A stretch of 64,000 bases of DNA from NCBI RefSeq assembly GCF_000425065.1, contig NZ_AULB01000003.1, positions 1-64,000 of the forward strand. Direction: 5' to 3'. Origin of the DNA: Actinomadura rifamycini DSM 43936. GTDB lineage: Bacteria; Actinomycetota; Actinomycetes; Streptosporangiales; Streptosporangiaceae. This document shows, one piece after another, positions 5,273 to 25,224 of the stretch. Numbering within the stretch: the first letter of the stretch is position 1; each line of letters opens with the position of its first letter. Made by a program: the position numbers and the translations under genes. Below the pieces are notes generated by a model. That model made no database searches. It was not told where the DNA came from and saw only the letters and a list, made by a program, of their open reading frames with translations.

Positions 5273-7258
5273 TCAGGGGCGGGGGCGGAGGGTGCCGGCG
5301 CCGAGCCCCTCTAGGCCGAGGGTGAGGACCCGGTCGCCGGCCTCCTGGGCGGCGCGGAGGGCCGCTTCCAGGTCGGTGAGGCGGCGGAACGCCTCGCCGT
5401 AGCCGGCCTGCTCGTCGAGGGTGAGGCGGGGCAGCCGGGCGCGGCGGACGTCGAACCGGGCGGACGAGGTGGAGCTGCGCAGGCTCGCGCCGCGGGCGCC
5501 CAGCCGCAGCCAGCCCGCGACGAAGTCGGGGTCGCTGCGGGCGGGGTCGACGCGGACGATCGTCAGTCCGGGCCCGAGGACCGGGCCGTCCTCGGCGGCG
5601 ACGCGCGCGACGGGGTGGCGGGCGATCTGGGAGACGACGATGTCGCGGGCCCGGATCCGGACGTGGTCCGCGTCGGGGGCCGCGGCCCCGGTCGGGCCCC
5701 GGCCGCGGGCGGCGTCGTCCAGCGTGAGGACGGGCACGGTGCCCTCGTCCATCCGGATGCGGGGCGACACCCGCAGGAGCTGCAGGACGCCGGCCTTCGC
5801 CAGCTCGCCGATCGTCGTCATCGCGGGCTCGTCGCCGCCCCGCGCCTGTCTCAGCAGGTCCAGCGCGGTGACGGCCCGGGGCAGCGCGGCGGCGGCGCTC
5901 TCGAGGCGCTCGCGTTCGCGGGTGAAGGCGCCCCCGGCGGACGGCGCGGTGCGCTGCGGCAGGTGCCGCGCGGGGTTGAGGTCGACCTCGTCGTCGAGCA
6001 GGTCGATGATGCGGACGACGGTCGCGGCGCCGCGCTGCGGACGGCCGTCGAGGTAGCGGCGCCACGCGTCCACGGCGGCCTCGTGGTACGCGCCGGGCTC
6101 GGCGGACACGTCCGCCATCAGGACGTCGTCGGCGGGCTGGTCGCCCGGGGCGGGGCGGCGCAGCACCCAGACCGAGACCGCGACGGCCATGTTCGGCACG
6201 GCGCCCGCGGGGAGGCCGACGACGGCGCGCAGCGCGCCGCGGCGCAGCAGCTCGGCGCGGATGCGGCGGCCCGAGCGGCGGGCGGCCACGGCGGGCGGCA
6301 CCAGCATCACGACGAGACCGCCCGGCGCGGCGTGCGCGAGCCCGTGCTGCAGCCAGGCGAGCTCCGACTCCATGCGGGGCGGCAGCCCGTACTCCCACCG
6401 GGGGTCGCCGGTCAGCTCCTCGTATCCCCAGTTGCGGTCGTTGAACGGGGGGTTCGTGACGACGAGGTCGGCGGCGCGTCCGGCGAACGCGTCGTCGCGC
6501 AGGGAGTCGCCCGGACGGACCTCGGCCGGGGCCCCGCGCAGTGCGAGCTGTACCGCGGTCATGCGCGCGGTCGTCTCGTCTATCTCCTGCCCGAGGAGCT
6601 CTTGCACGTTCTTGTAGACGTCCTGGGCGGTGGTCAGGAACGCACCCGTGCCGCAGGCGGGGTCGAGGACGGTGCGAGGGGTTTCGGTCGCGAAGTCGAG
6701 CATCAGCCGGACGACCGGTTCGGGCGTCATGTACACGCGGCGGCTGTGGTGCTCCAGGTAGCGCGTGCGTAGGAACTCGAAGGCGTCCGCGGTGCCGAGT
6801 TCGTCGGCGAGCCCGGCGAGCGCGCGCGCCAGGGGGACGTGGGCGGCGGCGTCGAAGGAGGCGGGGAGCCGGTCGGTGTGCGCGCGGACGGCCGCGGCGA
6901 GCGCCTCGCCGGCGCGGTCGTCCGGGAAGGCGGACAGGTCGTTCCGGAGGGACGGGTCCGCGTGCAGGGAGAGCAGGAAGGCCCCGGCGAACGTCATGAC
7001 GTCGGACAGTTCGACGTCGGCGGCGGCGGCCTGCCGGAGGGTCTGCCAGACGCGCTCGCGCAGCGGCGGGTCGGCCAGTTTGCCCTGGTCGCGCAGCCAG
7101 CCCTCGATCTGGCCGAGGGAGAACGTCGGGCTGGTGGCGGTGCCGCCGACCGGCTGCGGGAAGTCGTCGTGCCGGCGCCGCCAGTTGCTCACCGCCGCGC
7201 GCCCCACACCCGCCAATCGGGCGATGTCGGCAGCGGTCACGGTCGCATCGTTCGACAC
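5273..7258 (-). CDS. HTH-containing N6-adenine DNA methyltransferase
   Basis: Class I SAM-dependent DNA methylase of the HsdM/N6_Mtase family, 661 residues. An N-terminal helix-turn-helix (about 8-55, core IARLAGVGRAAVSNW) precedes the catalytic domain with DPACGTG (199-205, SAM binding) and NPPF (269-272, adenine N6 methylation). Residues 500-650 resemble half of a type I specificity subunit (IRARDIVVSQIA, then a helical spacer near the end), so recognition may be built into the same chain. No HsdR gene is adjacent, but the divergent genes to the right encode a helicase-nuclease and a second nuclease. The GTG start at 7258 is the only good start before the HTH. Confidence 0.88.
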   Translation of the reverse strand: MSNDATVTAADIARLAGVGRAAVSNWRRRHDDFPQPVGGTATSPTFSLGQIEGWLRDQGKLADPPLRERVWQTLRQAAAADVELSDVMTFAGAFLLSLHADPSLRNDLSAFPDDRAGEALAAAVRAHTDRLPASFDAAAHVPLARALAGLADELGTADAFEFLRTRYLEHHSRRVYMTPEPVVRLMLDFATETPRTVLDPACGTGAFLTTAQDVYKNVQELLGQEIDETTARMTAVQLALRGAPAEVRPGDSLRDDAFAGRAADLVVTNPPFNDRNWGYEELTGDPRWEYGLPPRMESELAWLQHGLAHAAPGGLVVMLVPPAVAARRSGRRIRAELLRRGALRAVVGLPAGAVPNMAVAVSVWVLRRPAPGDQPADDVLMADVSAEPGAYHEAAVDAWRRYLDGRPQRGAATVVRIIDLLDDEVDLNPARHLPQRTAPSAGGAFTRERERLESAAAALPRAVTALDLLRQARGGDEPAMTTIGELAKAGVLQLLRVSPRIRMDEGTVPVLTLDDAARGRGPTGAAAPDADHVRIRARDIVVSQIARHPVARVAAEDGPVLGPGLTIVRVDPARSDPDFVAGWLRLGARGASLRSSTSSARFDVRRARLPRLTLDEQAGYGEAFRRLTDLEAALRAAQEAGDRVLTLGLEGLGAGTLRPRP

Positions 7259-8273: not shown

Positions 8274-8317
8274 CGCGCCCCGCGGCCGCCCGAACCGTCG
8301 TCATCACGGGAGTGGAA

Positions 8318-10705
8318 TTGAGCGAGATCTCCTGGGTTCTGACCGTCCCCCAGCCCGCCGCGTGGGCCATCGCCCACGGCCACCAGGACGTCTACAACCG
8401 CACCTATCCGACCGACCGGCGCGGCTGGTTCGCGATCTGCGCGGGCCGCGCCGCGGACTCCGGGCTCCTCGCGGCCACCGCCCGGCTCACCGGCCGCACC
8501 CCGGCGCAGGTCGCGCGGGAGGCGGCCGAGCGGGACGCGATCGTGGCCGTCGCCCGGCTCGCGGACGTGTGCAACGAGCCGTCCTGCGCCTGCGGGCCGT
8601 GGGCGCGGGACCGCTACGTCCACTGGCGGTTCGCGGACGCGGTCCTCCTCCCCGAGCCGGTGCCCGCGCCCCGCGAGGTCGGGATCTGGAAGCCGCCGAA
8701 GGACATCGCCGACGCCGTGGCGCTGCAGTGGCGCGCGGCGGCCGGCGAACCCGCCGACCACACCGCGGTCCGGGACGGCCTGCTGCCGCTCCCGGCCGCC
8801 GGCTACCGCCGCGTCCTGCTCCTCGGGACCACCGGCGCCGGCAAGACGACCGTCGTCCGGCAGCTGCTCGGCACCGACCCGGAGACCGAGCGGTTCCCGT
8901 CCACCTCGACCGCCAAGACGACCGTCGCCGACACCGAGCTGGTCCTGACGCCGGACGGCCCGTACCGCGCGGCCGTCACGTTCGCGGGCCGCGACGAGGT
9001 CGCCGCCCACCTGCGCGACAACGTCTGGGAGGCGGCCCGCGCGGTGCTGGAGGAGCGCCCGGAAAGGATCGTCCAGGACCGGCTGCTCGACCACGTCGGC
9101 CAGCGGTTCCGGTTCAGCTACCTGCTCGGGCGCGCGGCCGCGCCCGGCGCCGCGGACCCGTCCGACGAGCCCGACGACCTCGACGACGACGCGGCGGCCC
9201 TGGGCCCGCCGGACGCCGCGCCCGACCCGGGCACCACCGAGCTCGTCCGGACCTCGGTCCGGGAGCTGCGGCGGTTCGTCCGCGCGGAGCTCGCGCGGCT
9301 CGGGCCCGGCGCGCCGGCGGAGGCCGTCGAGGACGAACTGGAGACCCGCGTGCGCCGCTCCCCCGTGGCCGACCGGATCGTCGCGGCGCTCCTCGCCGCC
9401 GTCCACGACCGGTTCGCGCTGCTCGGCGAGGGCGAGCTGCGCCGCGCGGACGGCTGGCCGGTGTCGTGGACGTGGCGCAGCGACGACCGCGCCGAGTTCC
9501 TGCGGGTGATCACCCGGTTCTCCAGCAACCAGGCGGCGTTCTTCGGGCACCTGCTGACGCCGCTGGTCGACGGCGTCCGCGTGGCGGGCCCGTTCCGCCC
9601 CCGGTGGGCCGGGCGCGCTCCCCGGCTCGTCCTCATCGACGGCGAGGGCCTCGGCCACGCGCCGGGCTCCGTCGCCGAGGTCTCCACCCGGCTGCGGCGG
9701 CGGCTCGACGAAGTCGACGCGATCGTCCTCGTCGACAACGCGCAGCAGCCGATGCAGGCCGCGCCCGTCGCCGTCATGCGCACCGCCGCCGCGACCGGCA
9801 ACGGCGGCAAGCTGTTCTTCGTCTTCACCCACTTCGACCTGGTCAGGGGCGACAACCTGCGGTCGTTCCCGGACCGCGAGCGGCACGTCCTCGGCTCGGC
9901 GGAGAACGTCCTCGGCGACGTCCGGGAGGAGCTCGGCATCGCCGAGCGGGTGCTGCGCCGCCGCCTGGACGACGCGCGCTTCTTCGTCGGCGGCATCGAC
10001 CGGCTGCTCGCCCCCGACCTGGTCGACCCGGCCCGCCCGAAGGCGGCCCGCCGCACCATCGGGCAGCTCAACGCCCTCCTCGACGCCCTCACCGCGGACG
10101 CCGTCCCCCCGGAGACCGGCCCGTCCCGCCCGGTCTACGACCGCGCGCAGGTCACCGCCGCGGTCGTCGAGGCCGCGCGGGCCTTCCACGTCCGCTGGCG
10201 CGGCGCCCTCGGCGACGCCCCCGCCCCGGACGTCCCGCGCCGGCACTGGTCCACGGTCAAGGCCCTCACCCGGCGTCTCGCGGAGGGCCACACCGACGAG
10301 TTCAAGGACCTGCGCCCCGCCGCGAGCCTGCGCACCGCCCTCGAGTACGCGCTGTACCGGGCCCTGCAGCGCCCGGTCGGCTGGACCGGCGCCGAACCCG
10401 ACGCGGACGACCGGGAGGTCATCGTGGGCGAGATCGCCGGGGCCCTCGCCAAACGCCTCATCGCCCCCGTCGACCGCCTCGTCACCACCGGCCCGCGCCC
10501 CGCCTGGGCGCGCGCCCACGAGGAGCACGGCAGGGGCTCGACCGTCCGCCGCGCCCGCATCGTCATCGACGAGATCTACGAACGCGCCGTCCCGACCCCG
10601 CCCCCCGGCGCCCCCGGCGGCGCCCCGTACGCCCCGCCGCTCGCCCGCACCGTCCACACGGCCTTCCAGGAGGCGACCCGGGGCCTCGCCCACATCACCG
10701 GCTGA
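8318..10705 (+). CDS. ASCH-like domain fused to a large P-loop GTPase
   Basis: About 795 residues. Residues 1-60 (LTVPQPAAWAIAHGHQDV, then NRTYPTDRRGW and AICAG) resemble the ASCH fold, a nucleic-acid or modified-nucleoside binding domain. At about 167-178 lies a P-loop (LLLGTTGAGKTT). DGEG near 441 and FTHFD near 504 could serve as G3 and G4, so the core looks like a dynamin/septin-like GTPase, though ATP use is not excluded. Helical segments and an acidic DDLDDDAAAL stretch (about 285) separate the motifs. I prefer the TTG at 8318 because GGGAG ends at 8312; a GTG at 8312 gives two more residues. It lies 160 bp upstream of the helicase-nuclease gene, on the same strand. No close family is recognised. 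Confidence 0.7.
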   Translation: MSEISWVLTVPQPAAWAIAHGHQDVYNRTYPTDRRGWFAICAGRAADSGLLAATARLTGRTPAQVAREAAERDAIVAVARLADVCNEPSCACGPWARDRYVHWRFADAVLLPEPVPAPREVGIWKPPKDIADAVALQWRAAAGEPADHTAVRDGLLPLPAAGYRRVLLLGTTGAGKTTVVRQLLGTDPETERFPSTSTAKTTVADTELVLTPDGPYRAAVTFAGRDEVAAHLRDNVWEAARAVLEERPERIVQDRLLDHVGQRFRFSYLLGRAAAPGAADPSDEPDDLDDDAAALGPPDAAPDPGTTELVRTSVRELRRFVRAELARLGPGAPAEAVEDELETRVRRSPVADRIVAALLAAVHDRFALLGEGELRRADGWPVSWTWRSDDRAEFLRVITRFSSNQAAFFGHLLTPLVDGVRVAGPFRPRWAGRAPRLVLIDGEGLGHAPGSVAEVSTRLRRRLDEVDAIVLVDNAQQPMQAAPVAVMRTAAATGNGGKLFFVFTHFDLVRGDNLRSFPDRERHVLGSAENVLGDVREELGIAERVLRRRLDDARFFVGGIDRLLAPDLVDPARPKAARRTIGQLNALLDALTADAVPPETGPSRPVYDRAQVTAAVVEAARAFHVRWRGALGDAPAPDVPRRHWSTVKALTRRLAEGHTDEFKDLRPAASLRTALEYALYRALQRPVGWTGAEPDADDREVIVGEIAGALAKRLIAPVDRLVTTGPRPAWARAHEEHGRGSTVRRARIVIDEIYERAVPTPPPGAPGGAPYAPPLARTVHTAFQEATRGLAHITG

Positions 10706-10865
10706 ACGGCGGGACCGACCGTCCCCGGCGGGCCGGGCGGCAGGTGGGAGGCTTGCGGGGACAACCGCGAAGTGTCGCCGGACGTCCCACACAGACCGCA
10801 TGCGAAGATCGCGCCCCCCGCGGCGGAGGCGCGAGTGCAGACGTTGAAGGGATGCGAGGGCGTAC

Positions 10866-13800
10866 GTGACCGGTGATGCCATGACGCGGGAGCGGATCGG
10901 GCACCTGTACGACTATCTGGGGGCGCTCGCGCAGGAGGTGTACGCCAAACCCGTCCGGCATCTGGGCGACCACGAGGTGCAGGTGGCGCCGGGCGACCTG
11001 CCGGACCACCGGGCGGTGCGGCTGGTGTCCCCGGCCGGTGGCGGCACCGGGGAGGCGTGGCTGCGGGTCGGCAAGACGCCGAAGCCGAAACCGCCCGCGT
11101 ACCCGCCGGAGATCGCCGGGCTGCTGCGCGGGGTGGGCCGCGGCGACCCCGGCGTCCCGCCCGAGCTGCCGGACGACCTCGCGGCGCGGGCCGGTGAAGA
11201 GGCCGCCGGCAACGCCCGCGCGGTCCTGGCCGCCTGGCGCGCGGACGTGTGGGAGCCGTGGGCTGAGGCGGCCCGCGCCGCGCTCGCCGCCCGGGACCTG
11301 TACGAGACGCTGTTCCGGCTGCGGCAGCGGATGCGCGCCGACGAGGCCACGCACGAACTGGTGTGGGGCCACGGGATCCTGGGCTGGCACCACGGCGGGC
11401 ACCGGATCTGCCATCCGCTGCTGGTCACGCGGACGCGGGTGGCGTTCGACGCGGCGTCCGGGGAGATCTCGATCACGGCCGACGGGCCGACCGCCCTGGA
11501 GCTGGACTGCCTGCAGGGCCTCGGCGTCCCGGGGCTGGACCGGCTCGCCCCGATCGCCGAGGAGCTGCGCGCGGAGCCCGTCGACCCGTGGGCGCCCGAC
11601 GAGGCGCGCCGGCTGTACCGGCGGCTCGTCGCCCCCCTCGGGCTGGACGCCCGCATCGACGACGGGGTCGCGGCCCCGGAGATCGGCCCGACCCCGGTCA
11701 TGGCCGGGACGTGGCGGCTGTTCGTCCGGAAACGTCCGGTGATGTTCCCGCGCTTCTTCGAGCGGCTGAAGCAGACGGTCGCCGCGGGCGGGCGGCTGCC
11801 CGCGCCGATGGTGGCGCTGGCGACCGGCGACGACGCGCCGGCGGACGCCCCCGCGGACGACTGGACGCCGGTCGCCGAACGGCTGCTGCTGCCGCTCGCC
11901 GCGAACGACGAGCAGGAGCAGATCGTCCGCAAGCTCGCGTCGCACAGCGGCGTCACCGTCCAGGGCCCGCCCGGCACCGGCAAGAGCCACACGATCGCGA
12001 ACCTGGTGTCGCACCTGGTCGCGCACGGCAAGCGGGTGCTGGTCACCGCGCACAAGGACCAGGCGCTCGCCGTCCTGCGCGACAAGATCCCCGACGAGCT
12101 GCGGGACCTGTCGCTGGCGGTGCTCGGGTCGTCGTCGGCCGACCTGACCGCGCTGCAGCAGTCCGTCCAGGCGATCACGGGGACGGCCGACGGGATCGAC
12201 GAGGAGCGGGAGCGGCGCGCCACGGAGGCGCTGCGAGAGCGGCTCGACGCGGTGACGGCCGAGGTGCTGGCGCTGCGCAAGCGGCTGCGGACGTCCCTGG
12301 AGCGCGAGCAGGAGACGCTCGAGCTCGACGGCTTCCCCCGGCCCGCCGCCGAGGTCGCCGACCGGCTCGCCCGGCGGCAGGGCGAGCTCGACCTGATACC
12401 CGACCCGGTGCCCGCCGGGTCGCGGCCGCCGCTGGACCCCGGCGAGCTCGCCGAGCTGTACGCGCTGGCCGGGGAGATCGGCGAGCGGGACGCCCGGAAC
12501 GCGGTGCTCGACCTGCCGCCCGCCGACCGGCTCCCGCCGGGCGGGCGGCTCGCGGAACGCTGGGCGGAGCTGCGGCGGCTCGCGGACGTCCTCGCCGGGT
12601 ACCGCGACTACGTCGCCGACCCGGCCGTCCTCGACGCCGCCGGGGAGCCCGCGCTCGCGCGGCTCGCCGAACGCTGCGGGCAGGCCGCCCGCGCCCTCGC
12701 GGACCTGCAGGAACCGTGGTTGCAGCGGCTGCGCGACCAGGTTGTGCAGTCCCCGCGGTGGCGGGAGCTCTGGGAGGGGCACGCGCGGCGGCTCGGCGCG
12801 GACGCCGCCGAATGCGCGCGGCTGCGGGCGGCGACGGCGGGCGCGGCGGTCGAGCTGCCGCCGGGCCCGCCCGGCGAGACGCTCGCGCTGCTGGAGCAGG
12901 CGCGGGCCCGGTTCGCGCAGGGCAAGAAGGTGTCCGGGCTGACGCAGCGGTCGCTGGCGCAGTTCCTCAAGGGCACCGTGCTGGACGGCGAGACGCCGCG
13001 CACCGCCGCGGACGTCGAACGCGTCATCGCGTTCGTGGAGCTGCGGCGCCGCCGGGAGAGCGCGGTGCGGCTCTGGCGGGACGAGCTCGTCGCCGCGCTC
13101 GGCGCGCCCGAGCCCGCCGCCGGCGCCGCCGTCGAGATCTGGATCGACGCGCGGGTCCAGCAGATCACCGCCGCGCTGGCCTGGGAGTTCGGCGAGTGGC
13201 CGCGGCTGCGCGCCGAACTGTGCGCGATCGTCGCGCCCGACGCCGTCCCGCACCGGCCGTCCCCCGACGACCTGCACCGGCTCGCCTCGGTGCTCGGCGG
13301 GCTGACGGCGCGGGCCCGGCAGCGGGCCGTCCAGGCCGAGCTGGACGCCCTCGCCGCCCACGTGGCGGACGGGCGCGGCCGCCAGGGGGCGAGCCCGCTG
13401 TGGACCGACCTCGCGAACGCCGTCAGGCAGCGCGACCGGGGCATCTGGGACGCCGCGCTGGCGGGCGCGGCCCGGCTCGCGGCGCTCCGGCCGCGGGTCG
13501 CGCGGCTGACCGAGCTGCACGACCGGCTGGCGGCCGCCGCTCCGCAGTGGGCGCGCCGCATCCGGGAGACCGGCGGGGACGCCGCCGCGTGCGGCGACCC
13601 GGCCCGGCTCGGCGAGCTGTGGGAGTGGCGGCGCGCCGAGACGTGGCTGCGCGCGATCATCGACGCGGACGATCTCGGCGCCGTCCAGCGGCGCCTCGAC
13701 GCGGCGCAGGAGGAGCAGCGGCGCGTCACGCTCGAGCTGACGCGCCGCTCGGCGTGGCTCGCCATGAAGGGCAACCTCGGCGCCGACCGGCGCCGCGCCC

Positions 13801-15590
13801 TGGTCGGCTGGCTGCAGACCCTCCGCAAGATCGGCAAGGGCACCGGGGCGAGCGCGGGCAAGTGGCGCGCGGAGGCCCGGCGGCTGATGCCGGAGGCGAT
13901 GGGCGCCGTCCCGGTGTGGATCATGCCGTACTACCGGGTGGCGGAGTCGTTCGACCCGGTGGTCGCCCCGCCGTTCGACGTCGTCGTCATCGACGAGAGC
14001 AGCCAGTGCGACGTGTTCGCGCTCGGGCTGCTCGGCCTCGGCCGCAAGGTGGTCGTGGTCGGCGACGACAAGCAGATCAGCCCGTCCGCCGTCGGGATCC
14101 GCCGCGACCGCGTGGACGAGCTGATCCGCACCCACCTGCCGACGCTGCCGAACTCGATGCTGCTCGACATGGAGTCGAGCCTGTACGACGCGGCGACCCG
14201 GCTGTTCCCCGGGGTCGTCCGGCTGCGGGAGCACTTCCGCTGCCTGCCGCGCATCATCGAGTTCTCCTCGCAGCACTACTACGGCGGGGAGATCCAGCCG
14301 CTGCGGGAGGAATCGGACGTCCGGCTGCCCGGGCCCGCCGTGCGGGCGGTGCACGTCCCGGACGGCGTCCGGCGGGACCTGCCGATCGGCGACGTCAACG
14401 AGGCCGAGGCGCACGCCCTCATCGACCGGGTCGTCCAGTGCTGCGCCGACCCCGCCTACGACGGCCGGACGATGGGCGTCATCTCGCTGCTGAGCAGCAG
14501 CAGGCAGGCCCACTACATCGACGAGCGGCTCATGGGCAAGCTCGGCCCGGAGGAGTACGAGCGCCGCGGGCTCCGCTGCGGCGACTCCTACAGCTTCCAG
14601 GGGGACGAACGGGACGTCGTGTTCGTCAGCGTCGTCGCCGACTCGGCCCGCGCGCCGTTCACGTCCCGCCGGTACGAGCAGCGCGTCAACGTCGCCGCGA
14701 GCCGCGCCCGGGACCAGATGTGGGTGTTCCACAGCGTCCGGCCGAACGACCTGCATCCCGACGATCAGCGGGCGGCGCTCGTCCGGTACGCGTCCGACGG
14801 GCCGCGGTCCGCGGATGCGGCCGCCGACCCGGAGTCGCGCTGCGAGTCCGACTTCGAGCGCCGCGTCCTGCGCATGCTGCTGGACCGCGGCTACCTGGTC
14901 ACCCCGCAGCATCCGGTGGGCAACCTGCGGATCGACCTCGTCGTCCGGGGCGGCGGCCGCAAGCTCGCCGTCGAATGCGACGGGGACAAGTTCCACGGCC
15001 CCGACCAGTGGGAGGACGACCTGCGCCGGCAGACCGTCCTGGAACGTCTCGGCTGGCGGTTCTGGCGGGTGCGCGGCAGCGTCTTCTACCGCGATCCCGA
15101 AGCCGCGATGTCGGAGCTGTGGCCGCTCCTCGACCGACTCGGCATCACCCCGGGCGGCGACCCGCCACCCGAACCGGCCGAGGTCTCGCCGACCGCGCCG
15201 CATGCCGGGCCGGACGCCGATCCCCGTCCGCCCGGGCTCTCGCTCTCGCCGGAACCGACCGGCACGCCGGGCACGGCTCCCGTGGACCCCGCCCCGGTCG
15301 TCCCGCCCGCCGCCGACCGCGCGCCCGACCGTCCGGGCGCCGTGGAGGCCCGGACGCTGGAGTTCCTGGAGCTCGCCGGTGCTTCCCGAGACGCTCCGGC
15401 GGACGGGCCCGCCGAGCCGGCGCGGGCCCCGGACGGTCCGCCGCGCGGCCGGCGGAGCACCGGGGAGCAGGTCCGGGCGTGGGCGCGGGCGAACGGGCGG
15501 CACGTCGGCTCCCGCGGCCGGATCGCCAAGGCGATCGTCGACGACTACAACTGGGAGCACCCGGACGCCCCCTATGATCCGGACCGGTGA
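10866..15590 (+). CDS. Giant SF1 (Upf1-like) helicase - DUF559/MTES nuclease - Lsr2-like tail
   Basis: 1574 residues. The SF1B (COG1112-type) helicase has Walker A GPPGTGKSH (about 366), Walker B VVVIDESSQ (about 1040), GDDKQISPS, FRCLPRIIEF, SFQGDERDVVF (about 1242) and NVAASRARDQM (about 1275). A 600-residue helical, arginine-rich insertion separates motif Ia from motif II. Residues 1325-1425 form a Vsr/DUF559-like PD-(D/E)XK nuclease: ESDFERRV, RIDLVV, VECDGDKFH and FWRVRGS. A Pro/Ala linker leads to residues about 1530-1572 (VRAWARANGRHVGSRGRI), which match the C-terminal AT-hook-like DNA-binding domain of Lsr2. The start is GTG 10866; ATG 10881 is possible. A foreign-DNA surveillance nuclease is inferred. 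Confidence 0.88.
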   Translation: MTGDAMTRERIGHLYDYLGALAQEVYAKPVRHLGDHEVQVAPGDLPDHRAVRLVSPAGGGTGEAWLRVGKTPKPKPPAYPPEIAGLLRGVGRGDPGVPPELPDDLAARAGEEAAGNARAVLAAWRADVWEPWAEAARAALAARDLYETLFRLRQRMRADEATHELVWGHGILGWHHGGHRICHPLLVTRTRVAFDAASGEISITADGPTALELDCLQGLGVPGLDRLAPIAEELRAEPVDPWAPDEARRLYRRLVAPLGLDARIDDGVAAPEIGPTPVMAGTWRLFVRKRPVMFPRFFERLKQTVAAGGRLPAPMVALATGDDAPADAPADDWTPVAERLLLPLAANDEQEQIVRKLASHSGVTVQGPPGTGKSHTIANLVSHLVAHGKRVLVTAHKDQALAVLRDKIPDELRDLSLAVLGSSSADLTALQQSVQAITGTADGIDEERERRATEALRERLDAVTAEVLALRKRLRTSLEREQETLELDGFPRPAAEVADRLARRQGELDLIPDPVPAGSRPPLDPGELAELYALAGEIGERDARNAVLDLPPADRLPPGGRLAERWAELRRLADVLAGYRDYVADPAVLDAAGEPALARLAERCGQAARALADLQEPWLQRLRDQVVQSPRWRELWEGHARRLGADAAECARLRAATAGAAVELPPGPPGETLALLEQARARFAQGKKVSGLTQRSLAQFLKGTVLDGETPRTAADVERVIAFVELRRRRESAVRLWRDELVAALGAPEPAAGAAVEIWIDARVQQITAALAWEFGEWPRLRAELCAIVAPDAVPHRPSPDDLHRLASVLGGLTARARQRAVQAELDALAAHVADGRGRQGASPLWTDLANAVRQRDRGIWDAALAGAARLAALRPRVARLTELHDRLAAAAPQWARRIRETGGDAAACGDPARLGELWEWRRAETWLRAIIDADDLGAVQRRLDAAQEEQRRVTLELTRRSAWLAMKGNLGADRRRALVGWLQTLRKIGKGTGASAGKWRAEARRLMPEAMGAVPVWIMPYYRVAESFDPVVAPPFDVVVIDESSQCDVFALGLLGLGRKVVVVGDDKQISPSAVGIRRDRVDELIRTHLPTLPNSMLLDMESSLYDAATRLFPGVVRLREHFRCLPRIIEFSSQHYYGGEIQPLREESDVRLPGPAVRAVHVPDGVRRDLPIGDVNEAEAHALIDRVVQCCADPAYDGRTMGVISLLSSSRQAHYIDERLMGKLGPEEYERRGLRCGDSYSFQGDERDVVFVSVVADSARAPFTSRRYEQRVNVAASRARDQMWVFHSVRPNDLHPDDQRAALVRYASDGPRSADAAADPESRCESDFERRVLRMLLDRGYLVTPQHPVGNLRIDLVVRGGGRKLAVECDGDKFHGPDQWEDDLRRQTVLERLGWRFWRVRGSVFYRDPEAAMSELWPLLDRLGITPGGDPPPEPAEVSPTAPHAGPDADPRPPGLSLSPEPTGTPGTAPVDPAPVVPPAADRAPDRPGAVEARTLEFLELAGASRDAPADGPAEPARAPDGPPRGRRSTGEQVRAWARANGRHVGSRGRIAKAIVDDYNWEHPDAPYDPDR

Positions 15591-15679
15591 GCAAGCCTCG
15601 CCGACTTTTCCGAATCGGTGGTTGATCGAGTTCACGCGTGCTCTAATGGTCGTGGTCATCCCCTAGCGCTGGAGCGGAC

Positions 15680-17452
15680 ATGCCCTTCGGAAACTGGACG
15701 CCGCACGAGGAGCTGAGCGGCGATCCCGGCGTCATCCGGCTCTCGGCGAGCCTGCTCGACCGCGACGACCGGCACTGCCGCGACTTCGCCGCGCTCAAGT
15801 CCCGCCCGCGGGTGTGGCCGCGCAGGCGGGGGGCGCGGCGGTACGCGCCGTGGGAGACGTTCCCGCTCGGGCTCGTGATGGACGCCCTGAACCTGACCGA
15901 GTTCGGGGACGTCCCCGCGGAGGACGCGATCGACAAGGCGCTCGGGCGGGCGCGGTCGGCGGTGCACCCGGGTGTCGCGGTGTGGGTGCGGCACGCGTTC
16001 GACGCGTACCTGCGGGCGGCCGAGTGGATCGCCGACGACCTCGAGGCCGAGGGCGTCGCGGTGCGTCCGGAGCCGCTGCCGCGGGTCGTCCAGGCGGAGT
16101 CGGCCGCGGAGCTGCGGGTGCTCACCGCGTGGGGACGCTGGTACGGGTCGGCCGACGGCGCCGTGCGGGAGTTCCGGCGGCTCCGGGTGGGGCGCCCCGG
16201 CGAGCGCGACGCGCCGTCGAACGACGCGCTCGCGTTCGTCGCGGCGGCGGGCCTGCGCGCGGAGAGCGACGTCTACCGGGACCTGCCGGTCGAGGTGCTC
16301 CCGGACGAGGTCGCACCGCAGCGCGTCCGGTTGGTCGAGGTCGTCCTCACGGGGGACGCGCCGCCGCGGGTGCTCGTGGACGCGCCGCCGGCCGAGGTCC
16401 GCCGCGTGTACCGGGAGCGCACCAGGCCGATCGTCACCGACATCGCGTTCGGCGTGGGCACCCGGCCGGGGTCCGACTGCGTCGACTGCAAGGTGCTGCC
16501 GACGTGCGGCGCGGTCCCGGACGTCCCGGGCCTGCTCGGCCTCGAGGGGCGCGGCACGCACCGCCGCACCTGGTCGGTGACGACCGGCCGCCAGTACCTG
16601 GTGTGCCCGGCGCAGGCGCACCTGCGGGAGCTGCACATCCCCGCCGCGCAGCGCTCGGACGGGACGGCGGCGCGGCGGGGACGCGCCGTGCACCGGTGGC
16701 TCGAGCTGGCGCACGGCCGCGCCGGCGCGCCGGCGTGCACCCGCGGCGACCTCCCCGACCCGGCGGGCGGGCTCGGCATCGCCGCCGGCGTCCTGACGCC
16801 CGAGGAGTACGCGGACGCCCACCCGTACCTGGCGGCGCACGTGGAGGTGTGCCCGCTGCGCGAACCGTCCGCGGACGTCCGGCCGGAACCCGCGGTGGCC
16901 GCGCACGACACCGAAGCGGACGTCGTGGTCATCGCCCACCCCGACCTGATCCGCACCACGGGCGGCACCGTCGTGTACCGGGAGCAGAAGACGACGCAGG
17001 GCGCTCCCCCGGCCGGGGACACCCGGACGGTCTTCACCCTCGTGCCCCAGCTGGCGCTGGCCGTCCTGCTGATGAAGCACGGCGTCCTCGGCGGCGACGG
17101 CGGCGGCATCGTCGAACTGGAGACGATGACGCCGTCGGGCGCGGAGGTGCTGCGGTTCGACGTGTGGGACCCCGACGTCCGGGAGGCCGCCCGCGAGGTG
17201 ATCACGTCGATGACCGCCCGCTGGCACGCCGACGAGTCCTTCCGTGCGCTGCCCGGCCCGTGGTGCGGCGGCTGCCCGGTCGCCGACTGGTGCCCCGACC
17301 GCGCGCCGAACGACCCCGGCGCCCCGATCGTGGTGGACGGCGTCCGCATCGACCCGCTCACCGGCGAGGTCCTCGGCGACGCCGTCACCGGCCGCGCCGC
17401 CGCGGTCGCCGACGGCGTCACCGACCCGACCGAGGAACCCCCGCCCTTCTGA
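15680..17452 (+). CDS. Cas4/AddB-like PD-(D/E)XK nuclease with Fe-S cysteines
   Basis: 590 residues. The C-terminal half is a RecB/Cas4-type nuclease: CPAQ (about 308), GRAVHRWLE (about 335, conserved His), HPDLI (about 419) and YREQKTT (about 433, the ExK of the active site). A final cluster WCGGCPVADWC (about 527-537), together with the first cysteine, suggests an AddB/Cas4-style iron-sulfur centre. The N-terminal half has a second cluster CVDCKVLPTC (about 267) and no recognised fold. The gene starts 90 bp after the helicase-nuclease on the same strand, so the two probably act together in DNA end processing or defence. The substrate is unknown. No adaptation genes or CRISPR repeats are present. 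Confidence 0.82.
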   Translation: MPFGNWTPHEELSGDPGVIRLSASLLDRDDRHCRDFAALKSRPRVWPRRRGARRYAPWETFPLGLVMDALNLTEFGDVPAEDAIDKALGRARSAVHPGVAVWVRHAFDAYLRAAEWIADDLEAEGVAVRPEPLPRVVQAESAAELRVLTAWGRWYGSADGAVREFRRLRVGRPGERDAPSNDALAFVAAAGLRAESDVYRDLPVEVLPDEVAPQRVRLVEVVLTGDAPPRVLVDAPPAEVRRVYRERTRPIVTDIAFGVGTRPGSDCVDCKVLPTCGAVPDVPGLLGLEGRGTHRRTWSVTTGRQYLVCPAQAHLRELHIPAAQRSDGTAARRGRAVHRWLELAHGRAGAPACTRGDLPDPAGGLGIAAGVLTPEEYADAHPYLAAHVEVCPLREPSADVRPEPAVAAHDTEADVVVIAHPDLIRTTGGTVVYREQKTTQGAPPAGDTRTVFTLVPQLALAVLLMKHGVLGGDGGGIVELETMTPSGAEVLRFDVWDPDVREAAREVITSMTARWHADESFRALPGPWCGGCPVADWCPDRAPNDPGAPIVVDGVRIDPLTGEVLGDAVTGRAAAVADGVTDPTEEPPPF

Positions 17453-21656: not shown

Positions 21657-23656
21657 GCGGGGACGCCTTCGGTGCGGGTCGAGCGGTGCTCGCGGGACGT
21701 CCGGCACAGCAGCGGACGGGCGCCGTCCAGGCCCAGGAGGCGCAGGCGGCGGGCCATCGGGTGGTCGCCCCGGACCGTCAGGCGGGCGCGGGGCGCCGGG
21801 TGCAGGCGGGCGGGTCCGCGGACGTCGATGCGGGAGCGCAGCGGCGTCCCGCCGAGGAGGGAGCGGACGGCGACGCCGCGTTCGGCCGCCGGGAGCGCCG
21901 GGCCGAGGTCGCCGGCGAGGGACGCGGCGTCGCCGATCGCGAGGGCGGGTTCGAGGGCGACGGGCGCGGTGGTGGCGGCGTGCCCCCACAGTTCCCGGGC
22001 GATCTCGGTCGTGGCGGCGGTGCTGTAGACGGAGTCGACGAAGCGGACGGCGAGCGGGCTCCGGACGGCGATGCCGAGGTGCGCCTCGCGGTAGGGGCCG
22101 AGGCTCGTGTCGCGGTTGTCGAAGGCGTGCAGGACGACGAGGGCGCGGCCGCCGAGGAGGGCGGGGCGTCCGGGGCCGAGCAGGGCGCGGGCCGGGCCGG
22201 GGTCGGCGGTGAACCAGGCGGTGAGGGCGGCCCCGGACCGGCAGGTGATCGGCAGGTCGAGTTCGCGGCCGGCGACCGTCCGGCGGGTGGGCGCGGCGGG
22301 GGCGGGGTCGTCGAACAGCCGGTACACCTGCGAGCGGGTGACGGGGCCGTGGTAGCGGGCGAGGCGGCGGTCGATCTCCGCGCGGTGCTCGGGGAGGTCG
22401 TCGGCCAGGTTGGCGGTGTAGTGCTCGGCGGAGTGGCAGGCCGGGAACAGGTGGGTGGGGTCGGTGTAGTCGACGACGTACCAGCCGGGCCGGTCGATGC
22501 ACGTCCCGGCGCCCTGGCCGTCGAGGGCGGGGATGATGTCGTGCTGGTTGGTGACGCTGGCGACCCAGGTGTCCGGGGACGCCGGGCGCTTGAAGTCGAC
22601 CGGGGAGCCGACCGCGACGACGTGCGTGACGGTGCGGCGGGCGCAGAAGCCGGCGTCCTGGGCGAGGCTCATGACGGCCGCGCCGCCGGCGCTGTGGCCG
22701 ATCAGCGCGATCTCCGCGCCGGGCGGGACGCCGTAGTCGTCGATGGCGCGGGCGAGCGCGCGGCTGTAGGGGCCGCTGTCGCGGACGGTGCTGCTGAACG
22801 CGCCGAGCAGGTCGCAGGGCGAGGCGTCGTCGGGCACGCCGAGCTTCATGCCGGGCGCGTGGACGACGTGGCGGTCGGTGCCGTCGGGGCCGCGGACGGT
22901 CTGGACGAGCACCCGCCCGCCGGGCCCGAGGGCGCAGATGTTGGCGAGGAAGTCGAGGATCGAGCCGCGGTCCCGCAGCCGGTCGGCGGGGTAGGGGACG
23001 CGGACGGCCGCGCCGGCGCCGGAGTCCAGCAGGGCGACGGCGCGGTTGCTGATGCCGGTGAGCGGGTCGGCGGTCGCGGTGCCGGCGCCGGTCGCGATGA
23101 GCCAGGCGGTCGCGTCGTTGAGGGGGTTGCGGTCGAGCAGGGCGCGCAGCGCGAGGACCTCGCCGAAGACCGGCGCGATCGCGGTGAGGGCGCGGACGGC
23201 GCCGCGGTCGCGCACGAGGGCGTACAGGGCGCGGACGGAGTCGAGGTCGCGGTCGGCGGCGACGGCGTCGACGAGCCGCCGGACGAGCGGGTCGCGGAGG
23301 AGCCCGGGGTCGGTGAGGCCCACGGCGGTGATGCGCAGCCGCAGCGAGGTGACCATCAGCCGGATCGCGAGGCTGCCGGCGCCGGCCATGCCGCCGAGCC
23401 GTGCCGCGGCGGTGCCGAGCGGGCCGCCGGTGAGGGCGTGCCCGAGCCCGCCGGGGCCGGCGACGGCCCGCAGCAGGGCGTGTTCGGCGCGGGCGGCGGC
23501 GACGGGCGCGCGCGGGAGGGCGGCGAGCGCGCCGCCGCCGGTGAGGGCGGCGGTGGCGTGCGCGGACGCCTCGCGGACGGCCACCGCGGTCTCGGCGAGC
23601 TCGCGGGCGGCGCGGCGCAGTTCCGCGGCGGTCGCGGGGGCGGTCTCGGCGGTCAC
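21653..23656 (-). CDS. Alpha/beta hydrolase (lipase-like) fused to an acetoacetate-decarboxylase-like domain
   Basis: About 667 residues from GTG 23656, overlapping the stop of the COX-like gene by four bases. The N-terminal 200 residues are helical. The middle holds a lipase-type nucleophile elbow GHSAGG (about 317) with THVVAVGSPVDF and NQHDIIP downstream, as in class 3 or PE-PPE-like lipases. Residues about 470-640 resemble the acetoacetate decarboxylase fold: LGPYREAHLGIAV (about 515) and ARELWGHAATTAPVALE. The ADC Schiff-base lysine is not obvious. In this operon it could release a fatty acid from a lipid for the dioxygenase, with the ADC-like part binding or processing a carbonyl product; both are inferences. 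Confidence 0.7.
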   Translation of the reverse strand: MTAETAPATAAELRRAARELAETAVAVREASAHATAALTGGGALAALPRAPVAAARAEHALLRAVAGPGGLGHALTGGPLGTAAARLGGMAGAGSLAIRLMVTSLRLRITAVGLTDPGLLRDPLVRRLVDAVAADRDLDSVRALYALVRDRGAVRALTAIAPVFGEVLALRALLDRNPLNDATAWLIATGAGTATADPLTGISNRAVALLDSGAGAAVRVPYPADRLRDRGSILDFLANICALGPGGRVLVQTVRGPDGTDRHVVHAPGMKLGVPDDASPCDLLGAFSSTVRDSGPYSRALARAIDDYGVPPGAEIALIGHSAGGAAVMSLAQDAGFCARRTVTHVVAVGSPVDFKRPASPDTWVASVTNQHDIIPALDGQGAGTCIDRPGWYVVDYTDPTHLFPACHSAEHYTANLADDLPEHRAEIDRRLARYHGPVTRSQVYRLFDDPAPAAPTRRTVAGRELDLPITCRSGAALTAWFTADPGPARALLGPGRPALLGGRALVVLHAFDNRDTSLGPYREAHLGIAVRSPLAVRFVDSVYSTAATTEIARELWGHAATTAPVALEPALAIGDAASLAGDLGPALPAAERGVAVRSLLGGTPLRSRIDVRGPARLHPAPRARLTVRGDHPMARRLRLLGLDGARPLLCRTSREHRSTRTEGVPA

Positions 23657-25224
23657 GCGCCGCGCCGCGTCATGGAGACGAACCGGGGGCGGGGGTCCTC
23701 CGGGACGTTGCGGTGCAGGACGTCCGACAGCGTCCGGGTGCTCCCGATGATCCGCATGCCGAGCGGGGTGAACGTCTCGGGGGTGAGCACGCGCGGCGCC
23801 AGCAGCGGGTTGGTCAGCGCCTGCGAGAACGCGTCGATGGCGATGATCTTCGTGAGCAGCGGCGGGAGGATGGCCCGCGCGGAGCTCGGCTCCTCGGCGA
23901 ACAGGCCGACGTACAGGTCGAGGTCGTCGACGCTCGTGTACAGCTCGCGCAGGGCGTTGCTCACCCGCGGGTCGCCGGACACGTGCTCGAACCGCCGGAC
24001 GCGCGGGAAGCCGCAGTGCGCGCGGTAGTCGTTGTAGGGGGCGAGTTCGAGGGCCCGGGAGTCGGCGATGCTGGCGACGTCCACGGCGTGCAGGCTCGGG
24101 TCGGTGTTGAACAGGCCGATGCGCCCGGCGCGCTGCTCGGACGCCTCCTCGAAGAGCCGCCCGAGCCCGGCCTCGGGGAGCAGGTCCGGGGCGAAGAGGG
24201 TGGCGGGGACGGGGAGTTCCGATCCGCCGACGACCAGGGTGGACGGGATGAGGCTGTGCCAGCGGTAGACGAGGTTGAACTCGACCGACGCCCAGTTCTC
24301 GCGCTGCCACGGCGCGCCCGCGAGGCGGGCGGTGAGCGACGGGTCGAGCAGGAAGCGGAAGTGGTAGGGGGTGATGTGGTTGATGTACTCCTCGACCACC
24401 AGCTTGACGACCTCGACGATGACGATGTTGCGGGCCGTCTGGAAGAGGCGCTCGTCGTCCCACCGGGGGTTCCGCTCGGCGAGCAGGCGGGCCACCCGGT
24501 TGTGCTCGCGCAGGAACAGCACGGTGAGCATGGTGAAGCCGACCTGGGTGTTGCCGCGGTCGCCGGCGAGCGCGAAGAGCCGGTCGCGGCGCTCGTCCGG
24601 GAGCGTCTCGAACCGGACGACGTCCAGCCCGGCGAACTCGGACTTGATCTTGCCGTTCTCGCAGAGGTACGGCGGGAACTCGCCGCCGTTGATCGTCTGG
24701 CTCTTGAGCAGGCCGCCGTCGAAGGCGCGGACGGCGGCGGCCGCGGCGGCGTCGAGCCCGTAGAGGGGGTTGAGGTCGACGTGGTGGTTGGAGCTGCTCC
24801 GGCGGGGGTCGCGGGGCTCGGCGGCGTCGCCGCGCAGGAACCCGTCGGTGAACCACTGCGCGAAGTAGGCGAACAGGACGGTCGAGCGCGGGCACGGGAT
24901 CGTGTCGCCGGTGCGGGCGAACAGGCCGGCGGCGCGTTCGGGCGCCGGGCGGGCGCCGTCCCGGACGGGGACGGGCGGGAGGTGCCGGCCGCTGAACGTC
25001 TTGTCGGTGAGCGAGGCCCAGGACGTGTAGGGGGCCATGGTGCTGAGCGGTTCGGGCCGTCCGGGCATCTCGCGGACCGCCCGGTCGATGATGGCGGCGT
25101 TGAGCCCGCGCCGCAGCGGGCGGACGCTCTCGGCGGCCCGCCACAGCGGGCGCCCGCGGGTGAGGGCGAGGTAGCGCAGCCGGTTGGCCGCGCCGTCGGT
25201 GGCGATGCTCCGCGCGCCGGGCAT
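23653..25224 (-). CDS. Cyclooxygenase/linoleate-dioxygenase-like haem peroxidase
   Basis: Animal-type haem peroxidase of 523 residues that aligns with the COX/fungal Ppo catalytic domain almost end to end. EFNLVYRWHSLIP carries the radical tyrosine (Y320, COX Tyr385) and proximal haem His (H323). LFLREHNRVARLL (236-248) and ITPYHFRFLLDP are further COX landmarks, as is HHVDLNPLYG (147-156). FAYFAQWFTD (118-127) matches the COX distal helix but has Asp127 where COX has the distal His. Arg51 and Ser467 are candidate equivalents of Arg120 and Ser530. Expected reaction: fatty acid plus O2 to hydroperoxide. No signal peptide is visible. The P450 stop lies 2 bp from its ATG, so the genes are co-transcribed. 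Confidence 0.88.
   Translation of the reverse strand: MPGARSIATDGAANRLRYLALTRGRPLWRAAESVRPLRRGLNAAIIDRAVREMPGRPEPLSTMAPYTSWASLTDKTFSGRHLPPVPVRDGARPAPERAAGLFARTGDTIPCPRSTVLFAYFAQWFTDGFLRGDAAEPRDPRRSSSNHHVDLNPLYGLDAAAAAAVRAFDGGLLKSQTINGGEFPPYLCENGKIKSEFAGLDVVRFETLPDERRDRLFALAGDRGNTQVGFTMLTVLFLREHNRVARLLAERNPRWDDERLFQTARNIVIVEVVKLVVEEYINHITPYHFRFLLDPSLTARLAGAPWQRENWASVEFNLVYRWHSLIPSTLVVGGSELPVPATLFAPDLLPEAGLGRLFEEASEQRAGRIGLFNTDPSLHAVDVASIADSRALELAPYNDYRAHCGFPRVRRFEHVSGDPRVSNALRELYTSVDDLDLYVGLFAEEPSSARAILPPLLTKIIAIDAFSQALTNPLLAPRVLTPETFTPLGMRIIGSTRTLSDVLHRNVPEDPRPRFVSMTRRGA

Follow-up and report, generated by a model that had tools for sequence, protein, structure and literature searches.

An SF1 helicase with a Vsr-fold nuclease and an optional Lsr2-type tail, a candidate AT-rich docking module, in Actinomadura rifamycini

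The gene at positions 10866-15590 of the window, which is the whole stretch of 64,000 nucleotides that was analysed, encodes a 1574-aa protein that joins an SF1 helicase, a predicted MTES_1575 nuclease and a C-terminal Lsr2 DNA-binding domain. With a little less than even confidence, we take it to be a DNA-processing enzyme that probably needs no partner and most likely acts as a helicase-nuclease effector against phages or plasmids; its tail would serve as an optional docking module for AT-rich DNA. The features are as follows (all positions in the window).

10866-15590, + strand: whole gene, SF1 helicase, MTES_1575 nuclease, linker and Lsr2 tail, 1574 aa (open reading frame, codon-position composition, orthologues)
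10866-11885, + strand: N-terminal region, residues 1-340, with no Pfam family but conserved among orthologues (Pfam, orthologue comparison)
11901-12281, + strand: first helicase lobe AAA_11, residues 346-472, with Walker A GPPGTGKS (Pfam; UPF1/SMUBP-2-like by sequence)
14178-14729, + strand: second helicase lobe AAA_12, residues 1105-1288 (Pfam)
14853-15125, + strand: MTES_1575 REase (Vsr-fold) nuclease, residues 1330-1420, with conserved D, ECDGD and H positions (Pfam, alignment, structure model)
15165-15443, + strand: disordered Pro/Ala-rich linker, residues 1434-1526 (pLDDT <50; aligns poorly among orthologues)
15465-15551, + strand: Lsr2 DNA-binding domain, residues 1534-1562 (Pfam, PDB sequence and structure matches, phage families)
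15513-15521, + strand: RGR AT-hook-like motif, residues 1550-1552, in the loop between two helices (sequence alignment, model)

The open reading frame starts with GTG at 10866 and stops at 15588-15590, and its codon-position composition (GC3 0.97, GC2 0.53) is that of a real gene. Full-length orthologues are present in other Actinomadura. In the 1574-aa protein, AAA_11, AAA_12, MTES_1575 and Lsr2_DNA-bd each exceeded their own Pfam cut-off, and the SF1 helicase of the original prediction was borne out by both of its lobes. The helicase core matched NAM7/UPF1, SMUBP-2 and SEN1 in a sequence search of the PDB, and with both lobes and Walker A present it is of the UPF1-like SF1 type. The putative nuclease belongs to the MTES_1575 family of the Vsr fold (PF18741; 101.2 bits against a cut-off of 38.2, E 3.4e-29), which has been described as a novel Vsr REase (PMC3710099). 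It had been called both Vsr-like and DUF559-type; the former clearly holds, whereas the latter is close but inexact, the DUF559 match being narrowly below its cut-off (20.1 vs 20.6). In our nuclease alignment (A2), D68, C82, D85 and Q100 are invariant and E81, D83 and H88 almost invariant, and the model of the domain matched the catalytic domain of I-Bth0305I (3r3p) with a probability of 1.00 and a target TM of 0.75.

With regard to the tail, its claimed match to the C-terminal domain of Lsr2 proved correct. Lsr2_DNA-bd (PF23359; cut-off 26.9) scored 33.0 bits in the whole protein, 38.4 in the C-terminal 108 aa alone and 39.3 in the profile search of the genome, and the solved Lsr2 C-domains 6qkp, 2kng and 6qkq were matched in sequence at E ~1e-4 with the intact RGR aligned. 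Phage Lsr2-like families matched the tail too (phrog_1223, E 2.7e-9). Actinobacteria ordinarily employ this domain for the silencing of foreign AT-rich genes. Lsr2 inserts RGR into the minor groove of AT-rich DNA and no longer binds DNA when the motif is mutated (PMC4466236; PMC8125055). The AlphaFold model of the tail (56 residues) has helices at 15-24 and 37-46 with RGR at 32-34 in the loop, and its comparison with known structures points to an Lsr2-like fold, the best two PDB matches being Lsr2 C-domains (Foldseek probability 0.72 and 0.80, next 0.09). In absolute terms, both matches score weakly (Foldseek E 0.4-0.5; Z 4.9 and 3.6, no other chain at Z 2), as is expected from a 56-residue model. 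When nuclease and tail were modelled together, the confidence was good for both domains, and the connecting stretch of ~93 residues was disordered. The tail thus resembles the tuberculosis Lsr2 (PDB 2kng, 6qkp) in sequence and in two helices with an RGR-bearing loop. On the other hand, Lsr2 has an N-terminal oligomerisation domain, while the tail is an appendage of a helicase-nuclease without one, and no such domain was among the Pfam matches over the whole 1574 aa. The dN/dS of the tail against the window copy was ~0.02 for G043, ~0.07 for L010, ~0.15 for L009 and 0.43 for the diverged L014, so the tail is under purifying selection in comparison with its three nearest homologues (0.02-0.15), and the linker is diverging. 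Because the tail is kept in frame in other genomes at low dN/dS, its match to Lsr2 is more than chance. Standalone Lsr2 genes are separately present in the host genome.

The helicase was found in 10 of the 65 genomes of the genus, and a strong tail in four of those ten. Our survey of 394 genomes of the class and 341 of the family, in which the C-termini were read from the DNA, revealed a second, distant clade (clade B), whose core is ~46% identical to that of the window's own clade (clade A). Five of the 14 members of clade A have the tail (the window protein, L009, L010, L014 and G043) and the other nine are without it; no hidden or frameshifted tail was found downstream of the tailless orthologues. 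Two of the latter, L011 and L019, retain a linker piece like that of L010, which suggests that they lost the tail. In clade B, the tail is present in 13 of 15 assessable members, with RGR in ten (L092, L155, L157, L159, L160, L161, L166, L167, L168 and G225, the last of which had too little core matched for tree entry and was assigned by its C-terminus) and degenerate without RGR in three (L153, L169 and L170). The degenerate tails are preceded by an extra conserved helical stretch, ~60 residues long, with no Pfam match. Among the fused tails, canonical RGR is kept in 13 of 17 and lost in those three and L014. The search for the fusion across actinobacteria found the tail in clades A and B, so it is not absent from all orthologues, and in no row outside these two clades in a tree of 111 rows. 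When A and B were forced into one clade, this was rejected (AU p 1.7e-34, for a quick tree with groups picked after the tree was seen), and with it a single origin of the tailed proteins through common descent of their cores, since A and B are not sisters. By this phylogeny, the tail would have been gained twice, moved between the clades or lost very many times. Transfer between the clades is possible, because the degenerate clade B tails and clade A have a YNxxxPxxP-like ending in common. Relative to Lsr2, the clade A tails have an additional YNWEHPxxxY ending.

The tail is optional and lies in a C-terminal slot where relatives carry other modules. After the nuclease, L008 has a GreA/GreB C-domain (37.1 bits, exceeding the cut-off), sub-threshold matches were found to GreA/GreB in L096 and L103 and to a winged helix in L124, and the remaining homologues have sequence without assigned family or nothing. 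The GreA/GreB C-terminal-like domain of L008, L096 and L103 is a hint of some RNA polymerase link. Similarly, giant proteins of the MTES_1575 type consist of an SF1 helicase, then the MTES_1575 nuclease, then a C-terminal nucleic-acid-binding module and, like the window protein, require no modification gene, whereas their C-terminal module consists of winged helices instead of Lsr2, and they also have HEPN and transglutaminase domains (PMC3710099). Neither HEPN nor transglutaminase was among the Pfam matches of the window protein. For related giant proteins, it has been proposed that invading DNA is recognised by their C-terminal winged helices (PMC3710099). Moreover, the Ku-Lsr2 fusion of cluster J mycobacteriophages likewise carries an RGR-bearing Lsr2 DNA-binding domain on the C-terminus of a DNA-processing protein, though this is Ku, not a helicase-nuclease, and is encoded by phages (PMC8612146). 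A search of the literature, mostly non-subscription papers, for fusions of Lsr2 with a helicase or nuclease yielded this Ku fusion alone. The parts and the Lsr2-tailed phage Ku are known, and we found no report of a helicase-nuclease-Lsr2 fusion there. The C-terminus of the PADLOC model PDLC03328 (type II methyltransferase) matched 15 of the 18 A1 sequences (17 fused tails and Lsr2). Its positions 523-570 seem to be an Lsr2-like segment, so other restriction-modification enzymes may carry such a tail as well. Lsr2 tails on type II methyltransferases were, however, not borne out in 296 genomes, where PDLC03328 had one match, which did not include the Lsr2-like part.

Docking on AT-rich DNA would be the best-supported mechanism for the tail, in view of the RGR retained in most fused tails, the purifying selection, the presence in two non-sister clades and the other modules in the slot. 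AT-rich tracts are enriched in DNA acquired by GC-rich genomes, as is known from xenogeneic silencing, and the GC content of the window is 75%. From its likeness to Lsr2 we infer that the tail binds AT-rich DNA, on which the helicase-nuclease would then dock. Detection of the trigger, which could be a DNA end, a fork or a replication structure, would fall to the helicase and the N-terminal region and not to the tail. However, several facts weaken a strong claim of steering. The tail is not essential, since nine of the 14 clade A members lack it, and RGR was lost from four tails. Host chromosomes too contain AT-rich, Lsr2-bound tracts, so the tail alone cannot tell foreign from host AT-rich DNA and the latter should be bound as well. 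The DNA-binding domain of Lsr2 works jointly with the oligomerisation domain, and since the protein has no such domain, one tail by itself may bind DNA with low affinity. Thus, an optional docking module is probably a better description of the tail than a discriminator between self and foreign.

The same facts bear on a second explanation, which we consider somewhat unlikely, that the tail is a generic tether of low specificity, giving more affinity or processivity on any DNA with no role in foreign-versus-host choice. It would account for the common tailless close orthologues and for the three clade B tails and L014 that keep the domain despite the lost canonical RGR; GC-rich DNA is also bound by an Lsr2 paralogue that has no RGR (PMC8125055), and the phage Ku-Lsr2 fusion is a precedent on a DNA-end protein (PMC8612146). 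The retention of RGR in the other fused tails, ten of them in clade B, is against it. A bolder form of the docking reading, unlikely in our judgement, is an immune helicase-nuclease family with an exchangeable C-terminal slot, which would have adopted the Lsr2 domain twice and aim destruction instead of silencing at AT-rich invaders or at phage replication zones occupied by Lsr2. When M. smegmatis is infected with phage Fionnbharth, its Lsr2 relocates to the zones in which phage DNA replicates, which does not happen with phage BPs (PMC10066036). Should the enzyme indeed be aimed by its tail, base composition would serve GC-rich actinobacteria for attacking foreign DNA as well as for silencing it. 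Steering is directly testable, because nature provides orthologues with and without the tail whose cores are closely alike, and the variable slot offers a route to studying target choice by helicase-nucleases. That the tail is instead a protein-interaction or bait module, which binds a partner or mimics Lsr2 so that phage factors that act on Lsr2 also contact and trigger the enzyme as an integrated decoy, is speculative and very doubtful, because the conserved part is the DNA-contacting motif, even though phages encode Lsr2-like proteins, host Lsr2 matters in infection by some phages (PMC10066036) and the modelled linker would leave the tail accessible.

A role of the helicase-nuclease in phage defence is suggested by its patchy distribution in the genus, by its deletion from a near relative, which left a scar, and by similarity to the models of PDC-S37, Hhe and Mokosh. 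In the near relative (G002, L193:3615-3730, compared with window 10860-15620), only about the first 15 helicase codons are left between flanking NTPase and PDDEXK genes that are 86-89% identical to those of the window, so the helicase has been deleted there. PDC-S37, a phage defence candidate, was the best PADLOC match (E 5e-60 for the window protein, E 4.5e-55 for clade B), the best stretch in the window protein covering residues 1005-1419 only (second lobe and nuclease, with the tail outside) in a model without a curated cut-off. The anti-phage proteins Hhe and ProA (NCBIfam) have a similar second helicase lobe and nuclease, with scores far under the curated equivalog cut-offs (148.7 vs 2000 and 217 vs 1500 bits). 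Assignment to Mokosh itself was rejected, as MkoA and MkoC match the helicase regions only and no PLD domain was found in the protein or its Pfam-scanned neighbours. It is quite improbable that the protein is an enzyme of DNA repair or replication forks held on the nucleoid by the tail: the UPF1/SMUBP-2-like core and the fusion of Lsr2 to Ku, an end-joining protein (PMC8612146), would fit, but only 10 of the 65 genomes of the genus have the gene, a near relative has lost it by deletion, and the nearest curated families are anti-phage.

Across the orthologue neighbourhoods, no constant partner genes were found beside the helicase. The flanking NTPase and PDDEXK genes were rejected as fixed operon partners, because both remain in G002, from which the helicase has been deleted, and they do not adjoin the helicase in most orthologues. 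The upstream P-loop protein of ~800 aa (window ~8290-10705, + strand) has only sub-threshold AAA Pfam matches and is conserved in some relatives, among them G002 and G043. Directly downstream, the PDDEXK_1 nuclease of 590 aa (15680-17452, + strand; PADLOC PprPDDEXK match, E 3.7e-84) is kept in G002, where the called ORF begins at the old helicase start and has 646 aa instead. A type I-like N6 DNA methylase is encoded at 5273-7258 (- strand), and its orthologues lie 3-12 kb from the helicase locus in several genomes. An orthologue of at least 68% identity occurs in 8 of the 10 genomes that have the helicase and in 17 of the 55 that lack it (Fisher p 0.005); the helicase thus tends to lie at a variable site close to this methylase. 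Obligate pairing of the two is not supported, since those 17 genomes have the methylase without the helicase; in genomes without the helicase, different genes adjoin it. Farther downstream, an animal haem peroxidase family protein is encoded at 23653-25224 (- strand; An_peroxidase, 164 bits).
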